From: Streptomyces carminius
GTDB lineage: Bacteria > Actinomycetota > Actinomycetes > Streptomycetales > Streptomycetaceae
DNA: 64,000 nt
Direction: 5' to 3'
Assembly: GCF_002794255.1 (NCBI RefSeq)
Contig: NZ_PGGW01000065.1
Span: 1-64,000 of the forward strand
Shown in pieces: positions 13,531 to 59,360 of this stretch. Made by a program: the position numbers and the translations under genes. The first letter of the stretch is position 1; the number at the start of each line of letters is the position of its first letter. A model generated the notes under the pieces. The model saw only the letters and a program-made list of their open reading frames with translations, was not told the origin of the DNA and made no database searches.

Positions 13531-13547
13531 CTTGCCGGAACGGCAAG
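13531..13547. promoter_or_regulatory. palindromic operator candidate CTTGCCG-N3-CGGCAAG
   Basis: A perfect 7-3-7 inverted repeat in the 283-bp region between the divergent flavoprotein and molybdenum hydroxylase genes, about 90 bp before the first and 180 bp before the second. The dyad symmetry and divergent position fit a repressor binding site, though the cognate regulator is not adjacent. Confidence 0.45.
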
Positions 13548-13725
13548 AAGAGCGGAGGGGGTGGAGCGCCGACGGCAGGTCCGAAAGCGCCGTAGCGCTC
13601 GGCCGCCGGCCCATGCTTCACTCCCTGTGACACGGCTCACAGGGGCTCCGTCCGGCCCCGGGCATCCGTGTCCGTCCCCCACACCCCCCACACCACGGCG
13701 CGCTCGCGCCCCCGAAGGAGTCCCC

Positions 13726-15338: not shown

Positions 15339-15339
15339 G

Positions 15340-17547: not shown

Positions 17548-17701
17548 GTGCCGGTGCCGTCCGCCGCCTCCGGCCGGAGAGAACACCACTTCGGCCTCTC
17601 CACGATCACAGGCAGCCGTCCTCCTGGCGCATCGGCTGTCTGCGCTGCCGGGATTTCATCCTGTGTTTCCACGCTGCGGTCACCGGCCTTCTGTGTTCGT
17701 C

Positions 17702-40631: not shown

Positions 40632-40780
40632 ACAGTCTCCTGGTGGGGGAATCACCGGCCGCGGCCGGCGGGGGATCGCTCCCCTGAAGCGGATGGTTTC
40701 CGCCCGCCCCGTGCGGGGCCGGTGCGCGCCCGTGCCGTGGGGGGCGTCCCGTGCCGTGGGGCGGGGAGTCACGGGGGCGG

Positions 40781-41551: not shown

Positions 41552-41650
41552 GTGGAGTTCCTCCCAGAGTGCTGGAACGGTGCCGGCCGGATGTGCCGGC
41601 CGGGTGTGCTGGGTGTGCCGCACGCGTGCCGCACGCGTGCCGTGCGCCGG

Positions 41651-44175: not shown

Positions 44176-46032
44176 TCAGTCCTCGACCCGCACGCCGTAC
44201 TCCCTGACCCAGGCGTCGTACTCCACCAGGCGCTCCATGACGGCCCGGGTCCCCCACAGACCGCCCAGCCCGGCGTAGGACTCGAGCGGCTTGTCCAGCA
44301 GTGCGCGCAGGCCGGCGGCCGGGACCAGCTCCAGTACCGGCGAGTCCGTGCGCAGCAGGGCGGCCACCTTGTCGCGCAGCGCCCGTACGTACCCCTGGTC
44401 CTGGGTGGAGGGGTAGGGGCTCTTCTTGCGCCTGAGCACCGACTCGGGCAGCACATGGGCGGTGGCCGCGCGCAGCAGGCTCTTCTCCCGGCCGTCAAAG
44501 TTCTTCATCTCCCAGGGGACGTTGAAGACGTACTCCACCAGCCGGTGGTCGGTGAACGGCACCCGGACCTCCAGGCCGGTGGCCATGCTGATGCGGTCCT
44601 TGCGGTCCAGCAGGAACTTCTCCCAGCGGCTGATGTTGAGGTAGGACAGCTCGCGCATCCGCGCCTCGATCCCGGTCTCGCCCGCCAGCCGCGGCACCTC
44701 CGCCAGGGCCTCGGCGTACCGCTGCTTGACGTACTCCTCCATTCCCAGCCGGTCCCACAGGCCGATCTCCCGGACGGCGGCCAGGCCGCCGAGCCGGCGC
44801 CAGGCGTCGTACCAGGGGAAGGTGTCGCCCTCCACCGCCTCCCGGTCGAAGAACCAGTTGTAGCCGCCGAACAGCTCGTCGGAGGTCTCACCGGACAGAG
44901 CGACCGTCACCCGCTCCTTGAGCGCCCTGCACAGGTGGTAGAGCGAGTGCTCCATGTCGCCGGTGGAGACCGGCAGGTCCTGGGCGAGCAGCACGCGCCG
45001 GCGCACGTCCTCGTCCAGGACGTCGGAGTTCTCCAGCTCGACGACGATGTGCTCGGCCCCGCAGTGCCGGGCGACCTCCACGGCGTACGGGGTGTCGGGG
45101 TCCAGCCAGATGCCGTTGTCCTTGAAGTCCCGCTCGTTGTCGCGGAAGTCGACGGAGAACGCCTTGATGCGCTCCTCGGCGCCCTGGTCCCGGAGCGCCT
45201 TCGCCGCGAGCGCGGTGATGGCGCTGGAGTCCAGGCCGCCGGAGAGCAGGGTGCCGACCTTCACGTCGGCGACGAGCTGGCGCTCGACGATGTCCTCCAG
45301 CAGCTCGCGGACCCGGGCGACGGTGGTGTCGAGGTCGTCGGTGTGCGGGCGGGCCCGCAGCTCCCAGTACGTCCGGGTGGTGCGGCCGCCGCGGGTGAAG
45401 CGGACGACGGTGCCGGGCACCACCTCGTGCATGCCCTTGAAGACCGCGTGGCCGGGGGTGTTGATGATGGCGAAGATCTCCGCCAGCCCCTCGCGGTCGA
45501 CCGCCGCCCGGGCCTCGGGGTGGGCCAGGATCGCCTTGGCCTCGGAGCCGAACAGCACCCCGTCCCGGGTGGGGTAGTAGAACAGCGGCTTGACGCCCAT
45601 GCGGTCGCGCACCAGCAGCAGCTCCTCGACGCGCGGGTCCCAGACGGCCAGCGCGTACATGCCGTTGAGGCGTTCGGTGAACTCCTGCCCCCACTCCAGG
45701 TAGGCGTGCAGGACGACCTCGGTGTCGCTGGTGGTGCGGAAGGTGTGTCCGAGTCCGGTCAGTTCCCGGCGCAGCTCGCGGTAGTTGTAGACCTCGCCGG
45801 TGTAGACGATCACCGGCAGGCCGTCGTCCGCGCCGGTGACGTGCATCGGCTGCCGGCCACCCGCCAGGTCGATGACCGACAGCCGGCGGTGCCCGAGGGC
45901 GGCGTGGGGCGACACCCAGGTGCCGTGGTCGTCCGGCCCCCGGCACTCCAGGGTCCGCGCCATGGCCGACACCGTGTCGGTGTGCCGTGTCAGGTCGCGG
46001 TCGTAGCCGACCCAGCCTGCGAGTCCGCACAT
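44176..46032 (-). CDS. asparagine-synthetase-type (glutamine-hydrolysing) amidotransferase
   Basis: 618 residues with both AsnB domains. Cys2 is the glutamine-hydrolysing nucleophile (MCGLAGW), with RGPDDHG and YTGEVYNY around the site; the ATP-pyrophosphatase domain has SGGLDSS at 264-270 and ALSGETSDELFGGY. In clusters, such enzymes turn carboxylates into amides rather than making asparagine. Together with a 3-hydroxyanthranilate pathway, a ring carboxamide is possible. AAGGAG precedes the ATG. Followed by the acetyltransferase gene. Confidence 0.92.
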   Translation of the reverse strand: MCGLAGWVGYDRDLTRHTDTVSAMARTLECRGPDDHGTWVSPHAALGHRRLSVIDLAGGRQPMHVTGADDGLPVIVYTGEVYNYRELRRELTGLGHTFRTTSDTEVVLHAYLEWGQEFTERLNGMYALAVWDPRVEELLLVRDRMGVKPLFYYPTRDGVLFGSEAKAILAHPEARAAVDREGLAEIFAIINTPGHAVFKGMHEVVPGTVVRFTRGGRTTRTYWELRARPHTDDLDTTVARVRELLEDIVERQLVADVKVGTLLSGGLDSSAITALAAKALRDQGAEERIKAFSVDFRDNERDFKDNGIWLDPDTPYAVEVARHCGAEHIVVELENSDVLDEDVRRRVLLAQDLPVSTGDMEHSLYHLCRALKERVTVALSGETSDELFGGYNWFFDREAVEGDTFPWYDAWRRLGGLAAVREIGLWDRLGMEEYVKQRYAEALAEVPRLAGETGIEARMRELSYLNISRWEKFLLDRKDRISMATGLEVRVPFTDHRLVEYVFNVPWEMKNFDGREKSLLRAATAHVLPESVLRRKKSPYPSTQDQGYVRALRDKVAALLRTDSPVLELVPAAGLRALLDKPLESYAGLGGLWGTRAVMERLVEYDAWVREYGVRVED

Positions 46033-46145: not shown

Positions 46146-47750
46146 TCAGGTCCGGGGCACCAGGCCGGCGGTGTCCCAGTACCGCAGCTGGGGCAGGGCG
46201 GAGAGCCGGCCGGTCCGTGCCACCGGGGCGCCGCCGAGGATCATCGCGGTGGGTTCCGTGGGATCGAAGACCGGCCACGCGGGGGCGTGCCGGCTGGTGG
46301 GTCTGCCGTTCCGGGCGAAGGAGGCCACCAGGTCGATCAGGGTGTCGGAGATCCGCCGCTCCAGCGGCCCGTCCCCGTACACCGGGGCGTGGACCGGCAG
46401 CCGGTGGGTGCCGAAGAGGAACTTCGAGGTGGCCTCGTGCGGCGTGCCGGCGTACGGCGGGCGCACCGGGTGGGCGAACTCCATGACGTACTGCGGCGAC
46501 CTCCCCTCCCGCGCGTGCCGCTCGGCCAGCCGGACGATCTGGTACCGGAACAGCGCGTCGCCCCACACCTCGGTCCACAGCGACACCGGGTCGGCGGCCC
46601 GGCCCGCGGCCGGCAGGGCCTCCCGGTAGTGGGCGAGGCACTCGCCGACCTGCTCGTCGCCGACCTTGGCGGCGCACTTGTCCAGCACGGCGCGCACCGC
46701 GGCGCGCAGCCCTGCCTCGTCGGCCGGGAGCGGGCCGTCGAAGGGGTAGCCCGGACCGGTGGTGAAGAACGACCCCTCGGTGCGGGCGAAGACGCACATC
46801 ACCGGCACGGCGGGGGTGGGCAGCGCGTGGTCGTACCCGCGCATCCACCGCCCGTCCACCACCGGGCCCCGGTACTCGCGCCAGCCCTCCACCGCGCGCC
46901 CGGCAGGATCACCGGAGAACGTCCCGTCCCAGGCGTCGCGGAGCGCGGCGGCCGGTACCCGGCGCAGACCCGGCACCGTCGTGCCGAACCGCCGTGCCAG
47001 CCGTTCGAAGACGGCGCGGGACTCCTCGGGCGTGGTCGAACTCGCCGGCGCCCACACGTGCTTGGTGCTGACGGCGACGATCCGCCGCACGATGCCGCGC
47101 AGTTCGGGCAGCAGGCTCAGCTGCCAGGCGCTGGAACCGCCCGCGGAGGTGCCGGCGAGCGTGATGTTGCCGGGGTCGCCCCCGAACGCCTCGGCGTTGT
47201 CCCGCACCCAGCGCAGCAGCGCCGCCTGGTCCTGCAGGCCCCAGTTGGCGAAGGAGCCGGTGGCGGGGTCCGCGAGGTCCTCGTGCAGTCCCCAGCCGAA
47301 GGCGCCCAGGCGGTAGTTGAAGGTGACCACGACCAGGTCGCCGCGTTCCGCGGTGCGGGCGCCGTCGTAGTCCGGCTCGCTTCCCGCCCCCAGCAGCCAG
47401 CCGCCGCCGTGGACGTAGACCAGGACCGGGCGGCGGCCCCGGACACCGGGGGTCCAGACGTTGGCGTACAGACTGTCCTCGGCGCTGCCGGGCAGGTAGT
47501 CGCCCTGCAGGGACGGCGGGGCGAACGCGGTGGTCTCGCGCACTCCGCCCCACGGTTCGGGAGGGCGCGGCGAGGCGAAGCGCAGCCGCCCCACCGGGGG
47601 CGCGGCGTAGGGCACCCCCCGGAAGACGGTGACCCGGCCGGTGCGCACTCCGGCGATCCGGCCGGCGGTGGTCTCGGTGACCACCGTGCCGCCCCGCCCC
47701 GCCGCCGCGGAGGAGGAGGCACGCGGTGGGTGTTGCTCTCGTCGGGACAT
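46146..47750 (-). CDS. type-B carboxylesterase
   Basis: About 534 residues, alpha/beta hydrolase of the carboxylesterase type. Oxyanion hole HGGG at 114-117; nucleophile Ser202 in AGTSAGG, where most members read GESAGA; a catalytic-His candidate in the C-terminal GTPHEATSKF. No signal peptide. The start is uncertain: ATG 47750 lacks a strong ribosome site and a GTG near residue 23 (VVTETTAG) is possible. It could hydrolyse an ester or act on an intermediate of the locus; it lies 113 bp upstream of the amidotransferase gene. Confidence 0.88.
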   Translation of the reverse strand: MSRREQHPPRASSSAAAGRGGTVVTETTAGRIAGVRTGRVTVFRGVPYAAPPVGRLRFASPRPPEPWGGVRETTAFAPPSLQGDYLPGSAEDSLYANVWTPGVRGRRPVLVYVHGGGWLLGAGSEPDYDGARTAERGDLVVVTFNYRLGAFGWGLHEDLADPATGSFANWGLQDQAALLRWVRDNAEAFGGDPGNITLAGTSAGGSSAWQLSLLPELRGIVRRIVAVSTKHVWAPASSTTPEESRAVFERLARRFGTTVPGLRRVPAAALRDAWDGTFSGDPAGRAVEGWREYRGPVVDGRWMRGYDHALPTPAVPVMCVFARTEGSFFTTGPGYPFDGPLPADEAGLRAAVRAVLDKCAAKVGDEQVGECLAHYREALPAAGRAADPVSLWTEVWGDALFRYQIVRLAERHAREGRSPQYVMEFAHPVRPPYAGTPHEATSKFLFGTHRLPVHAPVYGDGPLERRISDTLIDLVASFARNGRPTSRHAPAWPVFDPTEPTAMILGGAPVARTGRLSALPQLRYWDTAGLVPRT

Positions 47751-48033
47751 TCGCCGATCCTCGCTTCAGCGTGTTGCGACGGGGACGGTGCGACGGTGGA
47801 CGCGTCGGCGGCGGGCGCCGTGACGGTCGGGGGACCGCAACGATCGTGCAACCGGTGCCGCGGCGGCCTCCAACACAGCGCGGCATCTGTGTCAGGTCGC
47901 GGCGGCACTGTGTCAGGTCGGGACGGCGGGGCCGCATCGGGTGACGTACGGTGCCGTGGCACGACGACCGTGTCCGTCACCGGGCGGGCCCGCCGGGGTC
48001 CGCCCGGAGGAGCAGAGAGGAAGACCGCACACC

Positions 48034-48804
48034 ATGACCGTCCTGGGGACCGCGCGGGACGACGGCACGCCGGTGGTGACCGTCTGGTCGGACATCAGCT
48101 GCCCCTGGGCGACGCTCGCCCTGCACACGCTGCACCGCGCCGCCGAGCGCCTGGCGCTGCCGGTGCTGGTGGACCACCGGGCCTTCCCGCTGGAGCTGTT
48201 CAACGGCGTGCCCAACCCGAAGTACATCGTCGACGCCGAGGTGGCGGTGATCGCCGGCCGGCTGCCCGAACTGGGCTGGCGGCGCTGGTCGGCGCCGGAG
48301 TGGACCTACCCGGTGACCCTGCTGCCCGCCATGGAGGCCGTCCAGGCCGCCAAGGACCCGGAGATCGGCGGCCTGCGCGGCAGCGACGAGCTGGACGCCG
48401 CGCTGCGCCGGGCGTACTACACCGACAGCCGGTGCGTCAGCATGCACGCGGTGATCCTGGACGTCGCCGGGCAGTGCCCGCACGTGGACGCCGGGAGGCT
48501 GGCCGAGGCACTGGCCCGGGGCGCCGGGCGGGCCGAGGTGTACGAGCAGTGGCGCACCGCGCGGGGACCGGAGATCCAGGGCAGCCCGCACCTGTTCGCC
48601 CCCGGCGGCTACCGCGCGCACAACCCCGGGGCGGTGTACGCCTGGCACGGCGACCCGCTGAAGGGCGACGGCTTCCCGCGGCTGGACGACTACCGCCCCG
48701 AGTGGGCCGGGGAACTGCTGCGGCGGCTGCACCGCGCCGAGGACAGCAGCCGCTCCGGGGAGGCGGGCAGCTCCCGCCCGACCAGCGAGCGCAGCACGGG
48801 ATAG
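48034..48804 (+). CDS. DsbA-family (FrnE-like) oxidoreductase
   Basis: 256 residues. N-terminal thioredoxin fold with a single active-site Cys23 (ISCPWATLAL), a helical insertion, and a C-terminal GSPHLFAPGGY block that supplies the cis-Pro. This matches the FrnE/2-hydroxychromene-2-carboxylate isomerase-like DsbA group rather than secreted DsbA, since no signal is present. Substrate unknown. Its last 115 bp overlap the convergent flavoprotein gene, so one of the two C-termini may be a secondary extension. It is the only plus-strand gene between 37.5 and 58 kb. Confidence 0.82.
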   Translation: MTVLGTARDDGTPVVTVWSDISCPWATLALHTLHRAAERLALPVLVDHRAFPLELFNGVPNPKYIVDAEVAVIAGRLPELGWRRWSAPEWTYPVTLLPAMEAVQAAKDPEIGGLRGSDELDAALRRAYYTDSRCVSMHAVILDVAGQCPHVDAGRLAEALARGAGRAEVYEQWRTARGPEIQGSPHLFAPGGYRAHNPGAVYAWHGDPLKGDGFPRLDDYRPEWAGELLRRLHRAEDSSRSGEAGSSRPTSERSTG

Positions 48805-49958
48805 GCACCGGCGTCCCCGGCCAGTATCCCGCCCAGCAGGGTGCCCGCGTCGGGGGCGAGCACCAGCTTGGCGTACGTCCGGGCGGCCCGGTCGGCGTAG
48901 ACCAGTTCCATCGCCCCCTGTGCCGAGGCGTGGGCGTCGCCGAAACTGGCGACGTCCACGCCGAGCAGCTTCAGGCGGGTGGACAGGTCCGCGCCGGGGA
49001 AGGACGCGTCGCGCAGGCCCAGCAACTGGTCGGCGACGGCTTCCGCCATCCGGTAGCCGGGCGACACCAGCCCGTAGCAGCGGCCCTCCACGGCCGCGCA
49101 CTCGCCGATCGCCCAGACGTGCGGATCGGCGGTGCGGCAGCGCCGGTCCACCAGGAAGCCGCCGCGCGGGCCCGTCTCCAGGCCCGCCGGCGCGGCCAGT
49201 TCGTCACGTGGCCGGATCCCGGTGGAGAACACCACCAGATCGGCCTCCAGTTCGGTGCCGTCGCCGAGGACCACCGCGCGCACCCGGCCGCCGGGACCCG
49301 CCTCGACGGACCGGAGGGCCGTACCGCAGCGCACCGTCAGGCCCAGTTCGGTGACGTACCCGGCCAGCAGCCGCCCGGCGGCCCCGTCGAGCTGCGCCGG
49401 CATCAGGTGCGGCGCCAGCTCCACGACGTGCGGGCGCATGCCCAGCCGCCGCAGCGCCCCGGCGGCCTCCAGGCCCAGCAGGCCGCCGCCGACGACGACA
49501 CCGGGACGGCCGGGGACGGCCGCGGCGCGGACGGCCTCGAGGTCCTCGACGGTGCGGTAGACGAAGCAGCCGGGCAGTTCGCGGCCGGGGACCGGCGGTA
49601 CGAGGGGGCGCGAGCCGGTGGCGAGCACCAGCGCGTCGTAGCCGACGAGGTCGCCGTGCGCGGTGCGCACCGCGCGGTGGTGCCGGTCGACGGTGGTGAC
49701 CGGGGTGGCCAGCCGCAGTTCCACCCGCGGGTCCGCCGCCGGGTCCGGTCCGGCCGGCGCGGGCCCGGCGGCGCCGCCGGTACCGTGGTCGCCCTGGCCG
49801 GCCAGCCAGGAGGAGAGCCGGGTCCGGTCGTAGGCGGGGCGGGGTTCCTCGGCCAGGACGGTGACGCGCCAGGTGCCGGCCGGGTCACGGGCCCGCAGGT
49901 GCTGGACGAGGTGGTGGCCCACCATGCCGTGGCCGACGACGACGAGTGTGCGGGTCAT
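48690..49958 (-). CDS. NirB N-terminal-like FAD/NAD(P)H oxidoreductase, lacking the reductase half
   Basis: 422 residues equal to the first half of the nitrite reductase large subunit: FAD motif VVVGHGMVGHHL, DRTRLSSWL, NAD motif VVVGGGLLGLEAAG, then FSTGIRPRDEL and GGILAGDAGAYPVLRSLVG. In NirB a BFD-type [2Fe-2S] and a siroheme domain follow; here the frame ends after a short Ser/Arg-rich tail that overlaps the convergent DsbA gene. It may be a truncated NirB or a stand-alone diaphorase for the nitrate reductase. Last gene of the nitrate operon. Confidence 0.8.
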   Translation of the reverse strand: MTRTLVVVGHGMVGHHLVQHLRARDPAGTWRVTVLAEEPRPAYDRTRLSSWLAGQGDHGTGGAAGPAPAGPDPAADPRVELRLATPVTTVDRHHRAVRTAHGDLVGYDALVLATGSRPLVPPVPGRELPGCFVYRTVEDLEAVRAAAVPGRPGVVVGGGLLGLEAAGALRRLGMRPHVVELAPHLMPAQLDGAAGRLLAGYVTELGLTVRCGTALRSVEAGPGGRVRAVVLGDGTELEADLVVFSTGIRPRDELAAPAGLETGPRGGFLVDRRCRTADPHVWAIGECAAVEGRCYGLVSPGYRMAEAVADQLLGLRDASFPGADLSTRLKLLGVDVASFGDAHASAQGAMELVYADRAARTYAKLVLAPDAGTLLGGILAGDAGAYPVLRSLVGRELPASPERLLSSARCSRRSSSPAHSGR

Positions 49959-50039
49959 GGGTGGCGGTCCTTCCGGATTCCTCGCGTTCTCTCGCGTTCC
50001 CCGGTCCGCGGCGGTCCGCCGGGGCGTGCGTCCCGGACG

Positions 50040-51446
50040 TCACCGCGCGGCGGCCGGCAGCGTCTCGCACAGGCGCCGGACGTCGTCGGCGCAGGTGCCG
50101 CAGCCGGTGGTCGCCCGGGTCGCGGCGGCCAGTGCGGGCAGGTCGCGGGCACCGGCGCGCCAGGCCGCGGCGAGCGCGGCCCTGGTGACGTTGTTGCAGA
50201 AGCAGAGCACCGTGTCGTCCGGCAGTTCGACCCGGCCGGGCCCGGGCGCGGCGCTGCCCAGCAGGAGGGCGAGCCGTCCGGCGGGCACCGGCAGGTCGCG
50301 GTCGTGGAGCCGGCTGACGGCGGCGATGGCCCGGGGCAGACCGATCAGCACCCCGCCCGTGATCCGGTCCCCGTCGAGCGTCAGCGCGGCGTAGCGGCCG
50401 CGGGACGGGTCGGACAGGGTCACCGACTCGTCGCCCGGGGCGCCGGGCGGACCGAGGACGGCCAGGTCGGTCCCGGGGGCCCGGAGCCGGACGACGGTCC
50501 TGGCCGGCCGGTGGCGGACCCGTTGTCCGGCCAGTAGCCGGGCGAGGGTCTCGGCCTGCTCCCAGGCGCAGGAGAGCAGCCCCGGCACCTGTCCGGCGTG
50601 CTCGGCGCAGTCCCCGATCGCGTGGATACGGGGATCGCCGGTGCGCAGCCGGTCGTCGACGACCACGCCCCGGCGCACCGGCAGGCCGGCCTGCCGGGCG
50701 AGCCGGGTGTCGGGGACCACCCCGGTGCACAGCAGCAGCGTGTCGGCCCCGACCATCCGGCCGTCCGTCAGGGTCAGTTTCCCGGGCGCGTACTCCACCG
50801 CCCGCCGCCCGGGGCACAGCCGGACGCCGTACTCCGCCAGCCGGGCCGCGAGCAGGGCCCCGGCCCGGGCGTCCAGCAGGTGGTCCATCGGGTGCGGGCC
50901 GGGATGGACGAGGGTGACCTCGCGTCCGGCGCGGCGCAGCGCGAACGCGGTCTCCACGCCGAGGACTCCGCCGCCCAGCACGGCCACCGGGCCCGCACCG
51001 GGCCCGCCACCGGGCCCGCCACCGGGACCGCCACCGGGACCACTGCGCGGACCGTCGGCGAGGCCGGTGACATCGGCCGGGGACCGCACCGTGCGCACCC
51101 CCTCGCCCGGGACGCCCGGCAGCCGGGGGACGTCCGGGCGGGCCCCGGTGGCCAGCACCAGTGTGTCGTACGGGTGGACGCTCCCGTCGTCGGTGTGCAC
51201 CGCGCGGGCCCGCCGGTCGACGCGGACGGCCCGCACCCCCAGCAGCACCCGGGTGTCCCCGGGAGGAGGCGGCGGCACGGCCGCCTCCGGCGGCAGCTCG
51301 CCCGCGAGCACGGAGGTCAGCAGGGGGCGGTGGCAGGCCGGCTCCGCACCGAGGACCGTGACCGGACCGTGGTGGCCGTGGTGGCGCAGCCGCTCCACCA
51401 GCCGGTGCGCGGCCGGTCCGTAACCGACGACCAGGACGCCGCTCAC
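50040..51446 (-). CDS. FAD/[2Fe-2S] electron-transfer subunit of assimilatory nitrate reductase (NasB-like)
   Basis: 468 residues, GTG start overlapping the nitrate reductase stop by 4 bp. An N-terminal pyridine-nucleotide disulfide-type module (VVGYGPAAHRL; second nucleotide motif VLGGGVLGVETA), a Gly/Pro-rich linker made of repeated GGGP, and a C-terminal BFD-type [2Fe-2S] domain with Cys415, Cys417, Cys449 and Cys452. It would pass electrons from NAD(P)H to the Mo subunit. Start choice rests on the coupling and on the Rossmann motif falling at the N-terminus. Confidence 0.85.
   Translation of the reverse strand: MSGVLVVGYGPAAHRLVERLRHHGHHGPVTVLGAEPACHRPLLTSVLAGELPPEAAVPPPPPGDTRVLLGVRAVRVDRRARAVHTDDGSVHPYDTLVLATGARPDVPRLPGVPGEGVRTVRSPADVTGLADGPRSGPGGGPGGGPGGGPGAGPVAVLGGGVLGVETAFALRRAGREVTLVHPGPHPMDHLLDARAGALLAARLAEYGVRLCPGRRAVEYAPGKLTLTDGRMVGADTLLLCTGVVPDTRLARQAGLPVRRGVVVDDRLRTGDPRIHAIGDCAEHAGQVPGLLSCAWEQAETLARLLAGQRVRHRPARTVVRLRAPGTDLAVLGPPGAPGDESVTLSDPSRGRYAALTLDGDRITGGVLIGLPRAIAAVSRLHDRDLPVPAGRLALLLGSAAPGPGRVELPDDTVLCFCNNVTRAALAAAWRAGARDLPALAAATRATTGCGTCADDVRRLCETLPAAAR
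50985..51042 (-). repeat. 12-bp tandem repeat coding for (GGGP)n linker
   Basis: About four to five copies of a CCACCGGGCCCG-like unit inside the NasB-like gene, just before the second nucleotide-binding motif. It keeps frame and should vary in copy number by slippage. Confidence 0.7.
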
Positions 51447-53575
51447 GACGGCTCCGCCCAGGGCTCGACGCGCACGGCGCACACCTTGAACTCCGGCATC
51501 CGGCTGACCGGGTCCAGCGCGGGACGGGTCAGCAGGTTGGCCCGCCCCCGCCCCGGGAAGTGGAACGGCAGGAAGACGGTGTCGGTACGCAGCGTCCCGT
51601 CCAGGCGCACCCGCGCGACGGTGCCGCCGCGCGCCGAGGACACCAGCGCGAGCTGTCCCTCCTCCAGGCCGAAGCGTTCGGCGGTGTCGGGGTGCACCTG
51701 GACGAAGACCTCGCCGGCGGCCTCGTTCAGCTCCGGCACCCGCCGGGTCTGGGCACCGGACTGGTACTGGGCCAGGACGCGTCCGGTGGTGGCGTACAGG
51801 GGACGGTCCGCCGTGACCGGCTCCGCGGGCTCGCGGTGGTCCACCGCGGCGAACCGGGCCCGCCCGTCGGGGTGGGCGAAGCGGTCCAGGAACAGCCGCG
51901 GGGTGCCCGGGTGCGGGGCGCCGGACGTCCGCGGGCACGGCCAGTGCAGGGCCTCGCCCGCCTCCAGCCGGTCGTAGGTGATGCCCGAGTAGTCGGCCCG
52001 GCCGCCGGCGGAGGCGGCACGCAGCTCGTCGAAGACCGCCCGGGGATCGGTGGGGTAGCGGTGGCCGGGTTCGCCCAGGCGGACGGCCAGGCCGTGCAGG
52101 ACCTCCAGGTCGGTGCGGACCCCGGCGGGGGGCGGCAGCAGTGCCCTGCGGCGCAGCACCCGTCCCTCCAGGCTGGTCATCGTGCCCTCCTCCTCGGCCC
52201 ACTGGGCCACGGGAAGCACCACATCGGCCATGGCGGCCGTCTCGGAGGGCACGAAGTCGGCCACCACCAGCAGGTCCAGGGCGGCCAGCCGCTCGGTGAC
52301 GTGGGCGGCGCGGGGCGCGGAGACCACGGGGTTGGAGCCGAAGACCAGCAGCGCGCGCGGGCCGCCCTCGGTGCCGAGCGCGTCGAGGAGCTCGTAGGCG
52401 CTGCGACCGGGACCGGGCAGCGAGCCGGGGTCCACGCCCCACACCTTCGCCACCCGGGCCCGCGCCTCCGGGTCGGTGATGCTGCGGTAGCCGGGCAGTT
52501 GGTCGGTCTTCTGGCCGTGCTCGCGGCCGCCCTGTCCGTTGCCCTGCCCGGTCAGGGTGCCGTAGCCGCTGCCCCGGCGGCCCGGCAGGCCCAGTGCCAG
52601 GGCCAGGTTGACGAAGGCGGCCGCGGTGTCGGTGCCCTTGCTGTGCTGCTCGACGCCCCGGCCGGTGAGCACGTACGCCCGCCGGGCCCGGGCGAGTGCG
52701 CGCACCGCCTCGTACTGCTCCGCGGCCGGCACGCCCGTGACGCGCTCGGCGCGTTCGGGCCACCAGGCCGCGGCCCGGCTCCAGACGGCGTCGAAGCCGG
52801 TGGTGCGCTCGGCCACGTACTCCTTGTCGAGGTGGCCTTCGGCGACCGCGATGTGCAACAGGCCCAGGGCGAGGGCCAGGTCGGTGCCGGGCGCGGGCTG
52901 CAGGTGGAGGGCGGCCCGCTCGGCGGTGCGGGTGCGGCGCGGGTCGACGACCACCAGGTCGGCGTGGTCCAGGTGGCGCATCAGCGGCGGCATGGTCTCG
53001 GCCGGGTTGGCGCCCGCCAGCAGGATCACCTCGGCCGCGCCGAGGTCGGTGACGGGGAACGGCAGCCCCCGGTCCACGCCGAAGGCGGCGTTGGCCGCGG
53101 CGGCGGCCGAGGACATGCAGAACCGGCCGTTGTAGTCGATCTGCGAGGTGCCCAGCGCCAGCCGGGCGAACTTGCCCAGCAGATACGCCTTCTCGTTCGT
53201 CAGCCCGCCGCCGCCGAAGACGGCGACGGCGTCCGCGCCGTGCTCGGCCCGGACGGCGCGCAGCCGCTCCGCCACCAGGTCCAGTGCCTCGTCCCAGCCC
53301 GCCGGCCGCGGCCGGCCGTCACCGTCGCGCACCCGCGGGGCGCGCAGCCGGTCCGGGGCGCTCAGGACCGACGGGGCGGTCCAGCCCTTCTGGCACAGAC
53401 GCCCGGAGTTGACCGGGAAGGCGGACGGACGAACCGTCACCGCGCCGTGCTCGCGGCCCAGCAGCGTGCCGCACTGCAGGGCGCAGTACGGGCAGTGCGT
53501 CGCCACCCGCGCCGTCGCCGGTGCCGTCGCCCGGTCCGCCCCCGGCGCGGTGGCCCCGGCGGTCGTCTCAGACAC
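51443..53575 (-). CDS. assimilatory nitrate reductase catalytic subunit (Mo-bis-MGD)
   Basis: 710 residues. The N-terminal [4Fe-4S] site has Cys28, Cys31, Cys35 and Cys61 (HCPYCALQCG then LCQKGW). The molybdopterin domains follow with GGGGLTNEKAYLLGKFAR, GANPAETMPPLMRHL, GYGTLTGQGNGQGGREHG, SETAAMADVVLPVAQWAEE and EGRVLRRR, all typical of NasC/NasA nitrate reductases. It is cytosolic (no Tat signal), as expected for assimilation, and reduces nitrate to nitrite. GTG start inside the end of the transporter gene (8-bp overlap). Confidence 0.93.
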   Translation of the reverse strand: MSETTAGATAPGADRATAPATARVATHCPYCALQCGTLLGREHGAVTVRPSAFPVNSGRLCQKGWTAPSVLSAPDRLRAPRVRDGDGRPRPAGWDEALDLVAERLRAVRAEHGADAVAVFGGGGLTNEKAYLLGKFARLALGTSQIDYNGRFCMSSAAAAANAAFGVDRGLPFPVTDLGAAEVILLAGANPAETMPPLMRHLDHADLVVVDPRRTRTAERAALHLQPAPGTDLALALGLLHIAVAEGHLDKEYVAERTTGFDAVWSRAAAWWPERAERVTGVPAAEQYEAVRALARARRAYVLTGRGVEQHSKGTDTAAAFVNLALALGLPGRRGSGYGTLTGQGNGQGGREHGQKTDQLPGYRSITDPEARARVAKVWGVDPGSLPGPGRSAYELLDALGTEGGPRALLVFGSNPVVSAPRAAHVTERLAALDLLVVADFVPSETAAMADVVLPVAQWAEEEGTMTSLEGRVLRRRALLPPPAGVRTDLEVLHGLAVRLGEPGHRYPTDPRAVFDELRAASAGGRADYSGITYDRLEAGEALHWPCPRTSGAPHPGTPRLFLDRFAHPDGRARFAAVDHREPAEPVTADRPLYATTGRVLAQYQSGAQTRRVPELNEAAGEVFVQVHPDTAERFGLEEGQLALVSSARGGTVARVRLDGTLRTDTVFLPFHFPGRGRANLLTRPALDPVSRMPEFKVCAVRVEPWAEPS

Positions 53576-54941
53576 GGGTGACCTCCCGCCGTACGGGTGC
53601 GGCCGGGGCGGCACCGGACCGCCCGCGCCGCGGCCGGAGGGCCAGGACCATCGGTACGCACAGCGCGTAGTAGCACAGGAAGGCGACGAAGGCCGGCTCC
53701 CCGGACCCGGATCCGTCGCCGTACGCGGCGCGGAACGCCAGGTTGACGGCCACCCCGCCGAGCGTGCCGACCGCCCCGGCGACGGCGATCGCGGCACCGG
53801 CGAGCCGGCGCGCCTCGGCGAAGGCAGTGGCCGCGTCGTGCCCGGCGGTGACGGCCTCCTCGGCACGCCGGGCGAAGGCCACCGGGATCATCTTGTACGT
53901 CGAGCCGTTGCCGAGCCCGCTGAGCACGAACAGCGCCGTGAAGCCGGCCGTGAACAGGGGCAGGGAGTTCTGTCCGGCGGCCACCAGCAGCACCACGGTG
54001 CCCGCCGCCATCCCGGCGAAGTTCCACAGGGTCACCCGGCCCGCGCCGAAGCGGTCCGCGAGCCAGCCGCCCAGCGGGCGGGAGAGCGAGCCCAGCAGCG
54101 GCCCCAGGAAGGTGTGGCCGGCCGCCTCCAGGGGGGTGGCGCCGAACTGGGTCTGCAGCACCAGGCCGAAGGCGAAGCCGTAGCCGATGAAGGAACCGAA
54201 GGTGCCGACGTACAGCAGTGAGATCCACCAGGTGTCGGCGCACGCGACGGCCCGGCGCAGGGTGCCGGGGCCGGCGCGCACGGCGTCCACGTTGTCCATC
54301 TTCCACGCGGCCAGCAGCGCGGCCAGGGCGATCAGCGGCAGGTAGGCCGCCACCACGTACGACGGGTGGGTGTCGCCCGCCGTGGCGATGACCAGCAGCC
54401 CGACGAGCTGGACCGCGGCGACCCCCAGGTTGCCGCCTCCCGCGTTGAGCCCGAGGGCCCAGCCCTGGTGCCGCCGAGGGAAGAACGCGGCGATGTTGGT
54501 CATCGAGGAGGCGAAGTTGCCGCCGCCGACCCCGGCCGCCGCGCCGATCAGCAGGAACACCCACAGCGGGGTGCCCGGCCGCCGCACGGCCCACAGCGTC
54601 AGCAGGGTGGGCACGAACAGCACCAGGCAGGAGAACACGGTCCAGTTCCGGCCGCCGAACCGGGTCACCGCCCGGCTGTACGGCAGCCGCAGCGCCGCGC
54701 CGACCAGGGTCGGGACCACCACCAGCAGGAACTTCTCGTCCGGACCGAAGGCGAAGCCGATCTCCGGGGACAGGAACAGCACCAGGACCGACCACATCGT
54801 CCACACCGAGAACCCGATGTGCTCGGCGAGGACCGACAGGGCCAGATTGCGCAGGGCGACGCGCCGGCCGCCCCGCCGCCACGCTTCCTCGTCCTCCGGA
54901 TCCCAGCCGGTGAGCCAGCGGGAGGTGCGTCGTACGGTCAC
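53568..54941 (-). CDS. narK: NarK-type nitrate/nitrite transporter
   Basis: About 457 residues with 12 predicted helices. Both nitrate-signature regions are present: GGGNFASSMTNIAAFFP in TM5 and GLGNGSTYKMIP in TM11, with conserved Arg-bearing helices. GTG 54941 is favoured; an in-frame GTG at 55019 would add 26 Pro/Arg-rich residues. It imports nitrate and may export nitrite. First gene of the narK-reductase-electron-transfer operon, 115 bp downstream of the adenylating ligase on the same strand. Confidence 0.9.
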   Translation of the reverse strand: MTVRRTSRWLTGWDPEDEEAWRRGGRRVALRNLALSVLAEHIGFSVWTMWSVLVLFLSPEIGFAFGPDEKFLLVVVPTLVGAALRLPYSRAVTRFGGRNWTVFSCLVLFVPTLLTLWAVRRPGTPLWVFLLIGAAAGVGGGNFASSMTNIAAFFPRRHQGWALGLNAGGGNLGVAAVQLVGLLVIATAGDTHPSYVVAAYLPLIALAALLAAWKMDNVDAVRAGPGTLRRAVACADTWWISLLYVGTFGSFIGYGFAFGLVLQTQFGATPLEAAGHTFLGPLLGSLSRPLGGWLADRFGAGRVTLWNFAGMAAGTVVLLVAAGQNSLPLFTAGFTALFVLSGLGNGSTYKMIPVAFARRAEEAVTAGHDAATAFAEARRLAGAAIAVAGAVGTLGGVAVNLAFRAAYGDGSGSGEPAFVAFLCYYALCVPMVLALRPRRGRSGAAPAAPVRREVTRV

Positions 54942-55056
54942 GGCCGCACCACCCGGAGCGGCGGGAGGCCGCCGGACCCGCACGGCGGCAGGTCCCGGCG
55001 GACTCCCCTCGCGGTCCACCGCGCACCGGGCCGGCGGACCACACGGCGGACGCGGC

Positions 55057-56628
55057 TCACGCCCGATCGCCTCCCGCGGTCAGCAGGCGGGCGAGCTCGA
55101 GCCGCTTGATCTTCGTCGTGGCGGTCTGCGGCAGGTCCTCCAGCCGCCAGTGGACGGGCTCGGCCATCGCCGGCAGACCCACCGTGGCGGCCTGCCAGGC
55201 GACCGGGTCCAGCGGCTTGTCGTCCCGGGTGCACACCACGGGCACGGGGCGGCGGTCGGCGTCGGGGACGATGATGACCTCCACCAGCTCCGGCAGCCGC
55301 GCGAAGAGCTTGTCCTCGATCTCCAGCGTGCTGTCGACGCCGGGAATCCGGTCGACCTCGCGGTCCAGCAGGTGCAGACAGCCCCACCTGGTGCGGTAGC
55401 CCAGATCGCCCATGCGCCACCAGCCGTCGTTGACCTGCTTCTTCCAGCGCTCGTGCTCCCCGAGGTAGGTGACGATCCGCCCGTCGCTGCGGACCTCGAT
55501 GTACCCGGGGTTCTCCTTGGTGGGCGGCTTGCCGTCGCGGCTGACCACCCGCACGTCCGTCATGCCGGGGAAGGGGGCGCCCACGCACCGGCCGTCGGCT
55601 TCGGCGCCGCGCCTGCGGGTGTAGGTGCGGGCCGCGATCGGGCCGACCTCGCTCTGCCCGTACGCCTGGGCGAACAGCGGCATCCGGCGCCGCGAGGCGC
55701 CCAGCAGCCGGTGCACCGTCCGGGGGTGGATGGCGTCGAAGGTGCTGGAGAAGTACTTCACGTTGGCCAGCGGCTCGCGCGGGTCGTCGGCCAGCACCTC
55801 CCAGCGCAGGAAGGTGTTGGGGTGCGCCTCGATCAGCCCCGGCGGGCACTGGGCGAACAGCGTGCCCACGCTCTCCGGGTCGTCGTCCCGCAGGATGAGC
55901 AGCGGGTGCCCCTGGAGCACCGAGATGGGCATGGCGGTGAACATCCGCGAGTGCACGAAGGACACGTGGATCGCGACCGGCTCGCGCCTGCGGACGGCGG
56001 AGAGGACCACGGTCGCCTGCGGCCGGTAGCGGGACTGGAAGGTGAAACCGGTGTGGACGGCCAGCTTCGGCGTGCCGGTGGTCCCGGAGGTGTGCGTGAT
56101 CAGGGTCGGATGGTCCGGCGCCATCCGCACCGGGGAGACCCGCCGGACGCCGGCGAACTCCGCGAGCGGGGTGGCCCGCGGGTGGTCGCCGGAGGTCAGG
56201 AGCACCCGCTCGGACAGCTCGAAGACCTTCTCCGGCAGTTCGCCGTCCAGCTTGGCCTGGTCGGTCACCAGGTACGGCCGGTTCACGCGGCGCACCAGCT
56301 CGGCGACGGTCCCGCCGTCCAGCTTGGGCGACAGCAGCGCGGGGATCGCGCCGATCCGCGCCGCGGCACAGGCCAGCAGGGAGATGTCGAAACCGTCGGT
56401 CTTGTGGACCACGACGTACTCGCCGGGCCGGATCCCGGCGGCCCACAGCCGGGACGCGAAGTCGTCGACCAGATCGGCGACCTCGGTCAGGGTCAGCCGG
56501 CGGCCGCGCTCGGGGGCGATGTCGAGATCGTGGTCGAGGATCACCGGGCTCGCCGGGTGGCGCGCCGCCGCCCGGTCGAAGAGAGTGCCCAGTCGGATTC
56601 CCCGGTTTCCTATACGCTGCAGAAGCAT
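55057..56628 (-). CDS. ANL-superfamily adenylate-forming ligase
   Basis: 523 residues. Adenylation motifs: ITHTSGTTGTPK (P-loop, about 193-204), AYGQSE (A5), GWWRMGDLGYR (A7/A8) and catalytic Lys in TATTKIKR near the end. The N-terminus RLGTLFDRAA and LACAAARIGAIPALLSPKL fit acyl-CoA synthetase-like stand-alone ligases of Streptomyces. It should activate a carboxylate as its AMP ester. A more unusual possibility is nitrite activation by CreM-type ligases, which use ATP and nitrite to diazotise aromatic amines. No carrier protein is nearby, so CoA or direct transfer is likely. Confidence 0.88.
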   Translation of the reverse strand: MLLQRIGNRGIRLGTLFDRAAARHPASPVILDHDLDIAPERGRRLTLTEVADLVDDFASRLWAAGIRPGEYVVVHKTDGFDISLLACAAARIGAIPALLSPKLDGGTVAELVRRVNRPYLVTDQAKLDGELPEKVFELSERVLLTSGDHPRATPLAEFAGVRRVSPVRMAPDHPTLITHTSGTTGTPKLAVHTGFTFQSRYRPQATVVLSAVRRREPVAIHVSFVHSRMFTAMPISVLQGHPLLILRDDDPESVGTLFAQCPPGLIEAHPNTFLRWEVLADDPREPLANVKYFSSTFDAIHPRTVHRLLGASRRRMPLFAQAYGQSEVGPIAARTYTRRRGAEADGRCVGAPFPGMTDVRVVSRDGKPPTKENPGYIEVRSDGRIVTYLGEHERWKKQVNDGWWRMGDLGYRTRWGCLHLLDREVDRIPGVDSTLEIEDKLFARLPELVEVIIVPDADRRPVPVVCTRDDKPLDPVAWQAATVGLPAMAEPVHWRLEDLPQTATTKIKRLELARLLTAGGDRA

Positions 56629-56665: not shown

Positions 56666-57208
56666 TCACTGCTTCTCGATGACGCCCTTGATGCGCTTGA
56701 GGGTCTCGTCGAGATCCTTTTCGAGCTTCTCCGTCCAGTCCTGGACGAACTTCTTGCGGTCCGTCTCGTCCAGGTCGGCCACTATCTTGTGAATTCCGGC
56801 GGTGGCCCGGCCCATGCGGAAATGGTGGGTCAGTACGCAGCCGCCGGCCGCGGGCGCCATGTCGAAGCCCCAGACGCTCTCCTGGTCCTCGCGGGCGTGC
56901 GAGAGCATCATCCAGCGGAAGGTACGGCCCGGCTCGGCCGCCACCACCCTGGCCTCGGTGTACCAGGTGCCGCGGACCAGCGGCGCCCAGCCGACCACGT
57001 CCTCGCCGCGGAGGTTCTCGCCGCGGAAGACGGCCCCCACCGTGCGGGGTTCGCCGGAAATCCACTCACCGCCCCGGCATTCCGGGCTCCATTCACCGCT
57101 GCGGCCGAGATCGCTGACGACCTCGTAGACCTCCAGCGGTGAGGCGGGCACATGGATATCGGCGCGGAGTTCGAAAAGAGGAGAGGTGTCGATGATTGAT
57201 TCGCTCAT
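56666..57208 (-). CDS. SRPBCC (START-like) family protein
   Basis: About 180 residues with the polyketide-cyclase/START-like fold: ADIHVPASPLEVYEVVSD at the N-terminus, then SGEWSPEC, alternating strands and a long C-terminal helix rich in Lys and Glu. Such proteins bind hydrophobic or aromatic ligands and in clusters can assist cyclisation or carry intermediates. ATG 57208 (MSESIIDTS) is the best start; ribosome site weak. It lies 37 bp upstream of the ligase gene and is probably co-transcribed. Confidence 0.8.
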   Translation of the reverse strand: MSESIIDTSPLFELRADIHVPASPLEVYEVVSDLGRSGEWSPECRGGEWISGEPRTVGAVFRGENLRGEDVVGWAPLVRGTWYTEARVVAAEPGRTFRWMMLSHAREDQESVWGFDMAPAAGGCVLTHHFRMGRATAGIHKIVADLDETDRKKFVQDWTEKLEKDLDETLKRIKGVIEKQ

Positions 57209-57277
57209 GCTGAAAATGCTGCGAGAATCACCGGGGCCGGTCAACGGGCGCCGTAATGGTCCGTCAAGTCGTCATCC

Positions 57278-58264
57278 TCAGTCCTCCGCCCCGGTCACGC
57301 GGAGAACGATTTTCCCGCGCACCGCGCCCGTCTCCAGCCGGCGGTGCGCCTCGGCGGCGGCGCTCAGCGGAAGCGGCTCGACGGCCGGCGGGCGCAGCGC
57401 CCCCTCGGCGAGCAGCCGGTTGATCGCCGCGGCCGCGTCCGCCAGTTCGGTGACCGTGGCCTGGGAGATGGCGAAACCGACGACCGAGCAGTCCTTGAGG
57501 TAGAGCGGCCCGGCGGGCAGCACCGGCCGGGTCCGCATTCCGGCCAGGAGCACCACCCGCCCGCGCCGCGCCAGCAGGTCGACCGCGCCCTCCAGGTCGT
57601 TCCCGGCGGAGGTGTCGACGTAGAGGTCCGCGCCGTGCGGGCACGCCTCCCGCAGGCGCTTGAGGACGCCGGGGTCCCGGCGGTCGACCACCTCGACGGC
57701 GCCCAGCGCCCGGCAGCGCTCCGCGTCCCGGGCGCTCGCCGTGGCCACGACCCGGGCACCGGCCCGCGCGGCCATCGTGACCAGGGCACCGCCCACGTTG
57801 CCGGCGCCGCCGATGACGACGACGGTCTCCCCGGCACGCAGTCGGCCGTGGGTGAACAGCGCCAGATGGGCGGTGGCGGCGGGATGGGCCACGGCCACCG
57901 CGGCGACGGGATCCACTCCCGGGGGCAGGTGGTAGAGCCGGTCCGCCGGTACGACCACCTGCTCGGCGGCGGCGCCCTGCCGCCCGGCGTGGCCCAGGCT
58001 GTTGCACCACACGCGGTCGCCGGCCGCGAACCCGGGCGCGCCGGGGGACGCGGCGGCCACCGTGCCGACCAGGTCGCGGCCGATCACGAAGGGAAAGGCC
58101 ACCGGGGTGCGCCACGCTCCGGAGCGCACGAAGGTGTCCACATGGTTGACGGCCGTGACCTCCACGTTCACCAGAACGTCGGTCGGGCCCGGCCGGGGGG
58201 TGGGCAGTTCGCCGTGGCGGATGACGTCCGGCCCACCGAGTTCCTCGATGTAGGCAGCACGCAT
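57278..58264 (-). CDS. quinone oxidoreductase-like MDR alcohol dehydrogenase
   Basis: 328 residues, medium-chain dehydrogenase/reductase of the zeta-crystallin kind: no structural-zinc Cys cluster, GRDLVGTV, a nucleotide-binding VIGGAGNVGGALV and a C-terminal HRRLETGAVRGKIVLRV typical of quinone oxidoreductases. It reduces a C=C or C=O bond with NADPH. First gene of the ADH-SRPBCC-ligase set; the likely right edge of the metabolite locus, as the neighbour (CorA) is divergent and housekeeping. Confidence 0.88.
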   Translation of the reverse strand: MRAAYIEELGGPDVIRHGELPTPRPGPTDVLVNVEVTAVNHVDTFVRSGAWRTPVAFPFVIGRDLVGTVAAASPGAPGFAAGDRVWCNSLGHAGRQGAAAEQVVVPADRLYHLPPGVDPVAAVAVAHPAATAHLALFTHGRLRAGETVVVIGGAGNVGGALVTMAARAGARVVATASARDAERCRALGAVEVVDRRDPGVLKRLREACPHGADLYVDTSAGNDLEGAVDLLARRGRVVLLAGMRTRPVLPAGPLYLKDCSVVGFAISQATVTELADAAAAINRLLAEGALRPPAVEPLPLSAAAEAHRRLETGAVRGKIVLRVTGAED

Positions 58265-58367
58265 GGCTCGGATTCTGGCAGCCCGCCGCCCCGGCCGTCG
58301 CCCCGTGCCGCAGGTGTCTGTCAGGTCGGCCAGGCATGAATCCGGCCCGCCGAAGCATCCGGGTGAC

Positions 58368-59360
58368 ATGGAGTGTGTGATTTACCGGGAGGGATCCGGT
58401 GAGGCCCGGGAGGTCGACTGCGGGCAGGCCGCCGACGCGGGGCAGGCGGTGCTGGAGAACCTGCGGGACCTGGCCGGCGAGGAGTTCGGGTGGGTGCGCC
58501 TCGACGCCCCCTCCGAACGCGACATGGACCGGCTCACCGAGGGTCTGGGGCTGCATCCGCTGGCGGTCGAGGACGCCGTCCAGGCCCACCAGCGCCCCAA
58601 GTGGGAGCGGTACGGCGAACTGCTGGCGGTGGCGCTGAAGACGCTGTGGTACCTGCCGGAGGAGGTCGAGGTGGAGACGGGGGAGATGATGCTCTTCCTC
58701 GGTCCCCGCTTCGTGGTGACGGTCCGGCACGGCGGGGCCGATCCGGCCGCCGAGGCCGCCCGTCGGCTGGCGGCCGACCCCACGACACTGCGCTTCGGGC
58801 CCGCCGCGGTCCTGCACGCCGTCCTGGACGTGGTGGTGGACGCCTACAGTGACGCCGCCGACAAGGTGCGGAGGGAACTCACCGGGTTGGAGCGGTGCGT
58901 CTTCTCCCCCTCGCGCGACGACGTCACCGAGGACATCTACTCGCTCAAACGGGAAGTGCTGGAGTTCCGCGACGCCGTCCAGCCCCTGGTCCCGGTGGTG
59001 CGGGAGCTGTTCGACGGCCCGCACGTCCGGTGGCCCGAGGACCTCCAGCCGTACCTGCGCGACGTGGCCGACCACCTGTACCGCACCGACATCGAGGTCC
59101 GCTCGCTGGACGAGCTGCTCAACTCCGTGCTCGACGCCCAGCTCGCCCGCGTGGGCACCTGGCAGAACGACGACATGCGCCGGATCTCCGCATGGGCCGC
59201 GATCCTGGCCATCCCCACCATGATCGCCGGTGTGTACGGCATGAACTTCCAGCACATGCCCGAACTGGGCTGGGCGTACGGCTATCCGCTCGCCGTGGGC
59301 GGCATGGCCCTCCTCTCGGGCTTCCTGTACCGGGCCTTCCGCCGCAGCGGATGGTTGTAA
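58368..59360 (+). CDS. corA: CorA-type magnesium/cobalt transporter
   Basis: 330 residues: a large cytosolic N-terminal domain (to about 265) and two C-terminal membrane helices joined by the signature YGMNF, the selectivity motif of CorA channels. The long helix before TM1 is rich in charged residues. It conducts Mg2+ or Co2+ as a pentamer. The ATG at 58368 follows GGGTGA. Divergent from the alcohol dehydrogenase. Confidence 0.93.
   Translation: MECVIYREGSGEAREVDCGQAADAGQAVLENLRDLAGEEFGWVRLDAPSERDMDRLTEGLGLHPLAVEDAVQAHQRPKWERYGELLAVALKTLWYLPEEVEVETGEMMLFLGPRFVVTVRHGGADPAAEAARRLAADPTTLRFGPAAVLHAVLDVVVDAYSDAADKVRRELTGLERCVFSPSRDDVTEDIYSLKREVLEFRDAVQPLVPVVRELFDGPHVRWPEDLQPYLRDVADHLYRTDIEVRSLDELLNSVLDAQLARVGTWQNDDMRRISAWAAILAIPTMIAGVYGMNFQHMPELGWAYGYPLAVGGMALLSGFLYRAFRRSGWL

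Follow-up and report, generated by a model that had tools for sequence, protein, structure and literature searches.

Nitrate reduction genes in an aromatic-amine gene cluster

We analyzed a 64,000-nucleotide stretch of the Streptomyces carminius genome (contig NZ_PGGW01000065.1, positions 1 to 64,000; here called the window), in which genes for nitrate reduction sit within an aromatic-amine gene cluster. A minus-strand run from 58369 to 48690 encodes, in order, a quinone oxidoreductase-like protein (QOR), an SRPBCC protein, an ANL (adenylate-forming) ligase, a NarK transporter, a NasC nitrate reductase, and two FAD reductases, the first of them bearing a BFD domain; we refer to the last four proteins as the Nas module. 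Next along (47750 to 37537) are genes for an esterase, an asparagine-synthase-like protein, an arylamine acetyltransferase, DAHP synthase, DhbA, PhzD, PhzE, and an Rrf2 regulator. The 3-hydroxyanthranilate genes (PhzE, PhzD, DhbA, and DAHP synthase II; 38119 to 42823) therefore lie downstream of the Nas genes, separated from them by the esterase, the asparagine-synthase-like protein, the acetyltransferase, and a plus-strand open reading frame (ORF) for a DsbA-like protein. PhzE, PhzD, and DhbA together make up the chorismate route to 3-hydroxyanthranilate, as described for penzonemycin and others in the accessible part of PMC9323291.

A preliminary description of this DNA had placed NarK, nitrate reductase, electron-transfer, and ANL ligase genes beside 3-hydroxyanthranilate genes. 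A profile search of the window ORFs found all the named Nas and ligase genes at their positions on the minus strand, confirming that arrangement, and many other genomes contain this run as well. The description of everything as lying on one strand holds for the Nas, ligase, and 3-hydroxyanthranilate genes, all on the minus strand, but not for the intervening DsbA-like ORF.

Domain content and end point of the Nas module

The putative NarK-family nitrate/nitrite transporter, of the major facilitator superfamily (MFS), is encoded at 53568 to 55019 (minus strand; start likely near 54941) and scored 267.5 bits with TIGR00886 (cut-off, 311.7). The gene for the NasC-type molybdenum nitrate reductase catalytic subunit occupies 51443 to 53560 (minus strand; start approximate, the ORF opening at 53866). 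Its product has the Pfam molybdopterin, Fe4S4, and dinucleotide domains and scored 744.9 bits with NF047855, short of the equivalog cut-off of 1,100, as does the housekeeping copy of the same genome (759.9 bits), to which it is 64% identical. Here “housekeeping” is a label for any NasC that is not near a ligase, with NirB- or NasB-like neighbors seen for some only. The window NasC carries CPYC-C-C and GRFCMSS motifs and has the same Cys-Met active site as the housekeeping NasC; in a comparison of 28 NasC rows, the CMSS stretch was present in all 28 and the N-terminal cysteine set in 27, the miss being a match that begins late (G169). A Cys-Met rather than a Cys-His active site favors nitrate reductase over formate dehydrogenase, and these residues speak for the window NasC being a nitrate reductase.

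Two FAD reductases complete the module. One (50040 to 51443, minus strand; PF07992 plus PF04324) has a C-terminal BFD [2Fe-2S] domain, is 38% identical to the housekeeping NasB-like protein, and may serve as a NasB-like electron donor. The other (48690 to 49958, minus strand; NirB alignment and TIGR02374) corresponds to the N-terminal half of NirB: it is 52% identical to residues 13 to 415 of the 877-residue housekeeping NirB and stops where the BFD and siroheme parts start. The siroheme half of NirB is absent on the window contig, the model TIGR02374 matching only 1 to 408 and 2 to 465 of its 794 positions in the two reductases, in agreement with the earlier reading that the window holds no siroheme nitrite reductase. 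By its domains, the cluster module is predicted to end at nitrite.

A check for a second nitrate reductase and NirB, which the preliminary description had proposed, found both a second NasC and a full NirB in a separate locus on contig C69 of the same genome. The module itself is without a siroheme reductase, but with a full NirB on C69 nitrite need not accumulate throughout the cell.

Identity of the ligase

The ANL ligase, a proposed ATP- and nitrite-dependent diazotase, is encoded at 55057 to 56628 (minus strand; PF00501). It has the motifs TSGTTGTPK, YGQSE, MGD, and TTKIK, and E327 and K506 are invariant in 36 aligned sequences; we take these residues to be the Mg-binding Glu and the A10 Lys of ANL ligases, respectively. 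The Mg-binding role of this Glu is also given in the accessible text of PMC11705231. The best NCBIfam models for the ligase are generic FadD models, yet it scores far under their cut-offs. In a Foldseek search with its AlphaFold model (predicted local distance difference test score [pLDDT], 91), the ATP-dependent diazotase CmaA6 was the top match and Tri17 was also among the matches; in VIA, CmaA6 tied for first place with CoA ligases (Z = 40.5), and Tri17 followed with Z = 38.7. A profile search of the PDB returned, in order, FadD (9xb8), Tri17, 4-chlorobenzoate CoA ligase, FadD-1, and CmaA6, the nearest solved relatives thus being a mix of FadD, Tri17, CoA ligases, and CmaA6. An identity as an AvaA6-type diazotase was considered and rejected, as the window ligase and ten more distant homologues all miss the cut-off of the corresponding model; AvaA6 therefore offers no usable tree anchor. 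The ligase sequence by itself does not settle function, and the main argument for the proposed activity is the coupling of such ligases to a nitrite source.

Nitrite sources next to related ligases

Nitrite for ligase-made diazo groups is usually ascribed to the aspartate-nitrosuccinate (ANS) pathway, and genome mining seeks homologues of its enzymes CreD and CreE, as far as the accessible parts of PMC10777205, PMC11705231, and PMC11429834 describe. We searched for the window ligase among 297 genomes of the family, 124 of which had a match at 1e-60, and in a species-genome collection (62 loci). A first reading covered 20 loci of 20 kb around the closest matches, one 57% relative among them. 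CreE was found downstream of the ligase in 19/20 loci and CreD in 17/20, and NarK, NasC, and the reductases come after these in 9/20, in the gene order of the window; in such clusters CreE and CreD are placed between the ligase and NarK. The relatives' CreD, a Lyase_1 protein, is identified as a nitrosuccinate lyase (824 bits with the NCBIfam model against a cut-off of 650; PDB CreD, 6.7e-183). Their CreE, which is about 660 residues long with a PF13454 domain and is named here by family and position, matches the FAD-binding protein of PDB entry 8cp2 (3e-204).

We then counted nitrite-source genes at 66 nonredundant ligase loci whose downstream flank was 7.5 kb or longer, taking “near” as within 12.5 kb of the ligase and leaving CreE/CreD matches below 50% identity uncounted; nine of 75 rows with less than 7.5 kb downstream, duplicate proteins, and two frame-broken loci were set aside. 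CreE, CreD, and NasC occur together in 21 loci, CreE and CreD in 17, NasC only in 14 (the window included), and CreE with NasC in 1, such that CreE plus CreD or NasC lies near the ligase in 53/66. The 13 loci without a full source comprise 10 with neither, 2 with CreE only, and 1 with CreD only; in one of the 10 (L109), CreE is about 15 kb off. The sequence of L076 (genome G304) ends before any Nas gene could show. Nas and CreE/CreD are thus not a strict swap, and one cluster can hold both. Of the 66 loci, 61 have the SRPBCC protein no more than 4 kb from the ligase, and 50 have QOR no more than 6 kb from it. CreE is present with no CreD nearby at L054 (12409 to 17603; genome G169, which has a CreE/CreD pair elsewhere), L097, and L192 (Kutzneria). 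The two frame-broken loci, L128 and L131 (Streptomyces sp. I6), have cluster genes broken across several frames, likely reflecting a low-accuracy assembly.

The 14 NasC-only loci are those of the window, eight Streptomyces of the same layout, S. thermovulgaris, Longimycelium, two Micromonospora, and Kibdelosporangium. The eight same-layout loci share as neighbors the MFS exporter, an old yellow enzyme (OYE), a LAL-type regulator, QOR, the SRPBCC protein, the ANL ligase, the Nas genes, the esterase, and the asparagine-synthase-type amidotransferase, the last being 83 to 84% identical in these loci (82 to 84% over the part present in L194 to L196). Deeper flanks covered three of the eight (HM190, S. 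albogriseolus, and S. werraensis), and in 3/3 the next 20 kb encodes DAHP synthase, DhbA, PhzD, PhzE, the arylamine acetyltransferase, and transaldolase. As several species whose genomes were assembled independently share this Nas-only layout, including one with a complete chromosome (HM190, which carries CreE/CreD elsewhere in its genome), it is not an accident of this draft assembly.

CreE and CreD across whole genomes

A homology search found neither CreE nor CreD in the window, and a whole-genome search found no CreD above 30% identity in the window genome and, as its best CreE-like protein, a 38% monooxygenase on another contig (G000:C23:12173-14005; L181) with no CreD match within its 20 kb. 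The 30% lyase matches are, judging by sequence, presumably adenylosuccinate lyase; two of them (C8:120188-120946 and C38:158510-159268) have equal scores and query ranges on different contigs, which fits the assembly's contamination or duplication figure of 6.3%.

The same search was made in 19 genomes, a set that does not include the genome of L079. Five genomes, those of the window (G000), S. albogriseolus (G298), S. werraensis (G303), Longimycelium (G306), and Micromonospora KC606 (G307), had neither a CreD above 31% nor a CreE above 40%. Two (G308 and G309) had no CreE and had CreD-like proteins of 48% and 46%, and S. thermovulgaris (G305) had CreE at 40% and CreD at 57%. Relatives of both CreE and CreD (57 to 76%) occur outside the cluster in G297, G299, G300, G301, G302, and G304, and G169 and G310 to G313 have both, inside or outside the cluster. 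The absence of CreE/CreD is therefore genome-wide in five genomes and cluster-local only in others.

On the ligase tree, the minimum number of changes was 11 for CreE/CreD and 14 for NasC. The rows nearest to the window ligase by branch are three loci, all with CreE/CreD (3/3; Shimodaira-Hasegawa-like approximate likelihood ratio test support, 89), which favors loss of CreE/CreD in the window lineage over its never having had them. A link between missing CreE/CreD and the presence of NasC was also considered and was dropped after an independent-pairs test on this tree.

Linkage and phylogeny of the cluster-type NasC

We defined a cluster-type NasC by E values up to 1e-295 among the 297 family genomes, with three candidates scored per genome. 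It was found in 20 genomes, in 11 of which it starts within 3.6 to 8.5 kb of the start of the ligase gene; among the 16 genomes having both genes, about 0.04 were expected by chance within 10 kb, versus the 11 observed. In one further genome (G242), NasC and the ligase are close to contig ends, on different contigs. The NasC tree took 28 of 37 matches, leaving out two copies of one genome and seven matches without a locus (three part-length 65% copies and four 44 to 46% relatives). A branch with support of 100/98 has 16 cluster-type rows on one side and 12 others on the other, and 15 of the 16 adjoin a ligase, the exception being S. microflavus. In-frame TGA codons in three NasC matches all fall at extreme match ends.

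Three loci show other settings. At L162 (S. microflavus; 9106 to 18863), acyl-CoA dehydrogenase and thiolase-like genes come after a cluster-type Nas module, which is remote from the ligase-CreE-CreD cluster of this organism. At L183 (G166; 6693 to 13618), an unlinked module directly follows an SRPBCC protein 73% identical to that of the window, as if an intervening ligase had been lost. At L184 (G231; 4379 to 19878), the module is beside genes for a chorismate-binding enzyme, an OYE, a thiamine pyrophosphate enzyme, an FAD monooxygenase, an enoyl-CoA hydratase, and a 39% ligase homologue; to judge from these neighbors, this is perhaps another nitrite-using aromatic cluster.

Proposed pathway and alternatives

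We hypothesize that the cluster would yield a 3-hydroxyanthranilate-derived compound, as read from its gene content, and that NarK would import nitrate, which NasC would reduce to nitrite with electrons handed on from NAD(P)H by the two FAD reductases. The module would stop at nitrite, its NirB half having no nitrite-reducing part, and the ligase would use ATP and this nitrite to install a diazo group on an aromatic amine of the product. In most related clusters, nitrite would come from aspartate through CreE and CreD, often alongside the same Nas module, and in the window lineage the module would be the sole cluster-borne nitrite source. The acetyltransferase would fit an N-acylated 3-hydroxyanthranilate ring with a second amine diazotized, as proposed for penzonemycin in the accessible part of PMC9323291. 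Overall, we consider it likely that a dedicated Nas module makes nitrite from nitrate for a diazotizing ligase and that CreE/CreD have been lost in this lineage. The preliminary idea of nitrate reduction standing in for CreE/CreD thereby gains strong comparative support, in that relatives have CreE/CreD between the ligase and NarK and the window and others have the Nas genes only.

A number of observations weigh against this reading. With respect to the ligase, it scored 94.7 bits with the AvaA6 3-aminoavenalumate diazotase model NF058622 (cut-off, 975), CoA ligases equal CmaA6 as fold matches in VIA, and 9 of 12 ligase homologues of 48 to 56% identity have no CreE/CreD within their 20 kb. Ten of the 66 ligase loci have neither nitrite source nearby, and 21 of the 38 CreE-plus-CreD loci also keep NasC, which speaks against a strict replacement; the independent-pairs test found CreE/CreD unlinked to NasC (median p = 1, with few informative pairs). 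The occurrence of the same module without the cluster in relatives, named at the outset as a point that would count against the idea, was found in part, alongside the 11 linked cases: 7 of the 20 cluster-type NasC genes are away from such ligases in varied settings, two of them (G061 and G008) without a full module, and an eighth, that of G231, sits by the 39% ligase relative and the chorismate-binding enzyme. In a wider NasC tree to which unlinked rows were added, linked and unlinked rows are intermixed, and modules therefore seem to have entered or left clusters several times. Finally, the housekeeping NasC and NirB could produce or remove nitrite, and the source genome is a draft (7.2 Mb in 71 contigs, 96.6% complete, 6.3% contamination).

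Among the alternatives, the one that survives best, though we regard it as unlikely, also has the ligase as a diazotase and assigns the Nas module mainly to salvage, reconverting nitrate formed from escaped nitrite or nitric oxide, with the primary nitrite coming from CreE/CreD or else from the housekeeping nitrate reductase. The coexistence of Nas and CreE/CreD genes in 21 loci, the second NasC of the window genome, and the nitrate-nitrite-nitric oxide cycle described for S. coelicolor in the accessible part of PMC10552308 would suit such a role. However, the window and 13 other loci have no CreE/CreD nearby, and five of the searched genomes have no close pair anywhere, which leaves no nitrite from this aspartate route for recycling.

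Slightly less likely again, the ligase could form an acyl-AMP, an acyl-CoA, or an amide on 3-hydroxyanthranilate, with nitrite serving another step (nitration or nitrosation) or regulation. Its top NCBIfam model, the close fold match of CoA ligases and amide synthetases, and the homologues without CreE/CreD noted above are consistent with this possibility. Against it, members of the ligase subfamily are near CreE plus CreD or NasC in most of the 66 loci, a search of the window with the ligase as the query turned up no further ligase of this kind at 1e-15, although more distant ANL proteins would escape such a search, and in the profile search the nitrite-dependent Tri17 came behind one FadD-named entry and ahead of the CoA ligases.

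An ordinary nitrate-assimilation operon at a chance position, the simple alternative raised initially, is very improbable and contradicted by our results: its content of NarK, NasC, and reductases is typical of assimilation and 7/20 such NasC genes are away from a ligase, but the module is without a siroheme reductase, a separate housekeeping nasC-nirB exists, the NasC forms its own clade, and close linkage far above the chance expectation is repeated in Streptomyces, Longimycelium, Micromonospora, and Kibdelosporangium.

Returning to the Nas module as a dedicated nitrite source, we offer a broader suggestion more tentatively, as plausible but short of probable. The Nas set may be a portable nitrate-to-nitrite cassette, derived from an assimilatory operon minus the nitrite-reducing half of NirB and taken up beside or instead of CreE/CreD; nitrate, not aspartate, would then supply the distal diazo nitrogen and might gate production, and cassettes elsewhere (e.g., L184) might mark further nitrite-using pathways.

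Relation to known systems

The closest parallel is the ANS pathway with a CreM-type diazotase (cremeomycin and also tasikamide, avenalumate, and p-coumarate clusters), in which an ANL ligase is likewise coupled in-cluster to a nitrite source for aromatic-amine diazotization. CreD and CreE homologues are also encoded in clusters related to that of the window, whereas the window cluster itself has neither, and its nitrite would come from nitrate via NarK and NasC. By gene content rather than sequence, the penzonemycin (pzm) cluster resembles it in 3-hydroxyanthranilate genes, a CreM homologue adjoining an SRPBCC gene, a quinone reductase, an Rrf2 regulator, and an MFS gene; it differs in having CreD/CreE (Pzm11/12) and no nitrate reductase in its published gene table (PMC9323291, accessible part), and the window has NasC, the arylamine acetyltransferase, the amidotransferase, and the OYE.

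For alanosine clusters without ANS genes, nitrate/nitrite reductases were proposed as the nitrogen-oxide source in the accessible text of PMC11705231. In contrast to the window cluster, the product there is a nitrosohydroxylamine, the reductases are called non-dedicated (PMC12154649), and the accessible text describes no cluster-embedded, recurrent Nas module. The assimilatory nas operon (NasC, NasB, and NirB) is similar in the relatedness of its NasC to the window copy and in its NarK and NasB-like partners, but the window has only the N-terminal half of NirB, with no nitrite-reducing domain. That diazo nitrogen can derive from nitrate has an experimental precedent in the labeling of kinamycin D and SF2415A3 by 15N-nitrate, as given in the accessible part of PMC6133997. 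Among titles and abstract openings, a coverage with subscription papers mostly outside it, we found no report of nitrate-reductase genes within a diazo cluster. The new element is a dedicated, recurrent, cluster-borne Nas module, together with clusters bearing it alone.

Mining based on CreD/CreE would overlook clusters that have only the nitrate-reductase module. If our hypothesis is correct, nitrogen-cycle enzymes have been recruited to a natural-product cluster, and the nitrogen-nitrogen bond of a diazo cluster may come from environmental nitrate. Silent diazo clusters could then be probed simply by using nitrate in the medium as a switch, and a natural experiment would already exist in the corresponding clusters, which carry both sources or one of the two.

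Other genes of the window

Upstream of the ligase, the SRPBCC/polyketide-cyclase-like protein (PF10604) is encoded at 56666 to 57244 and QOR, a zinc-type quinone/alcohol dehydrogenase, at 57278 to 58369 (both minus strand; start of the latter uncertain); QOR has Pfam ADH_N/ADH_zinc_N domains and scored 171 bits with NCBIfam quinone_pig3 (cut-off, 296.8). The DsbA-like thioredoxin-fold protein (47941 to 48804, plus strand; PF01323, 4e-7) is convergent with the NirB-half reductase, and homologues are present in the clusters of some relatives.

The following genes, all on the minus strand, encode a carboxylesterase (46146 to 47750; PF00135), the asparagine-synthase-type amidotransferase (44176 to 46032, start approximate; TIGR01536, 511 bits against a cut-off of 267), and the putative arylamine N-acetyltransferase (43264 to 44118; NF011621, 133 bits against 493). 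The 3-hydroxyanthranilate genes, on the same strand, encode a class II DAHP synthase (41651 to 42823; TIGR01358, 400.8 bits against 614.7), a DhbA-type dehydrogenase for the 3-hydroxyanthranilate step (40781 to 41623; TIGR04316, 353 bits against 300), a PhzD-like isochorismatase (40008 to 40620, start approximate; PF00857), and a PhzE-like aminodeoxyisochorismate synthase (38119 to 40008, start approximate; PF00425 plus PF00117).

The Rrf2-family regulator (37537 to 38043, minus strand; PF02082 and TIGR00738) was considered as a candidate three-cysteine nitric oxide sensor, but its sequence showed two cysteines only. Beyond it are genes for a LuxR/AAA (LAL-type) regulator (34782 to 37472, plus strand; PF13191 and PF00196) and, on the minus strand, an OYE-type flavin mononucleotide oxidoreductase (33552 to 34625; PF00724; N-ethylmaleimide-reductase-like, under the cut-off), an MFS exporter (32270 to 33502; PF07690), and a transaldolase (31010 to 32134; PF00923), of which three relatives encode a 51 to 52% homologue in their corresponding clusters. 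Close to the window end, a NarL/MadR-type response regulator is encoded at 63293 to 63952.

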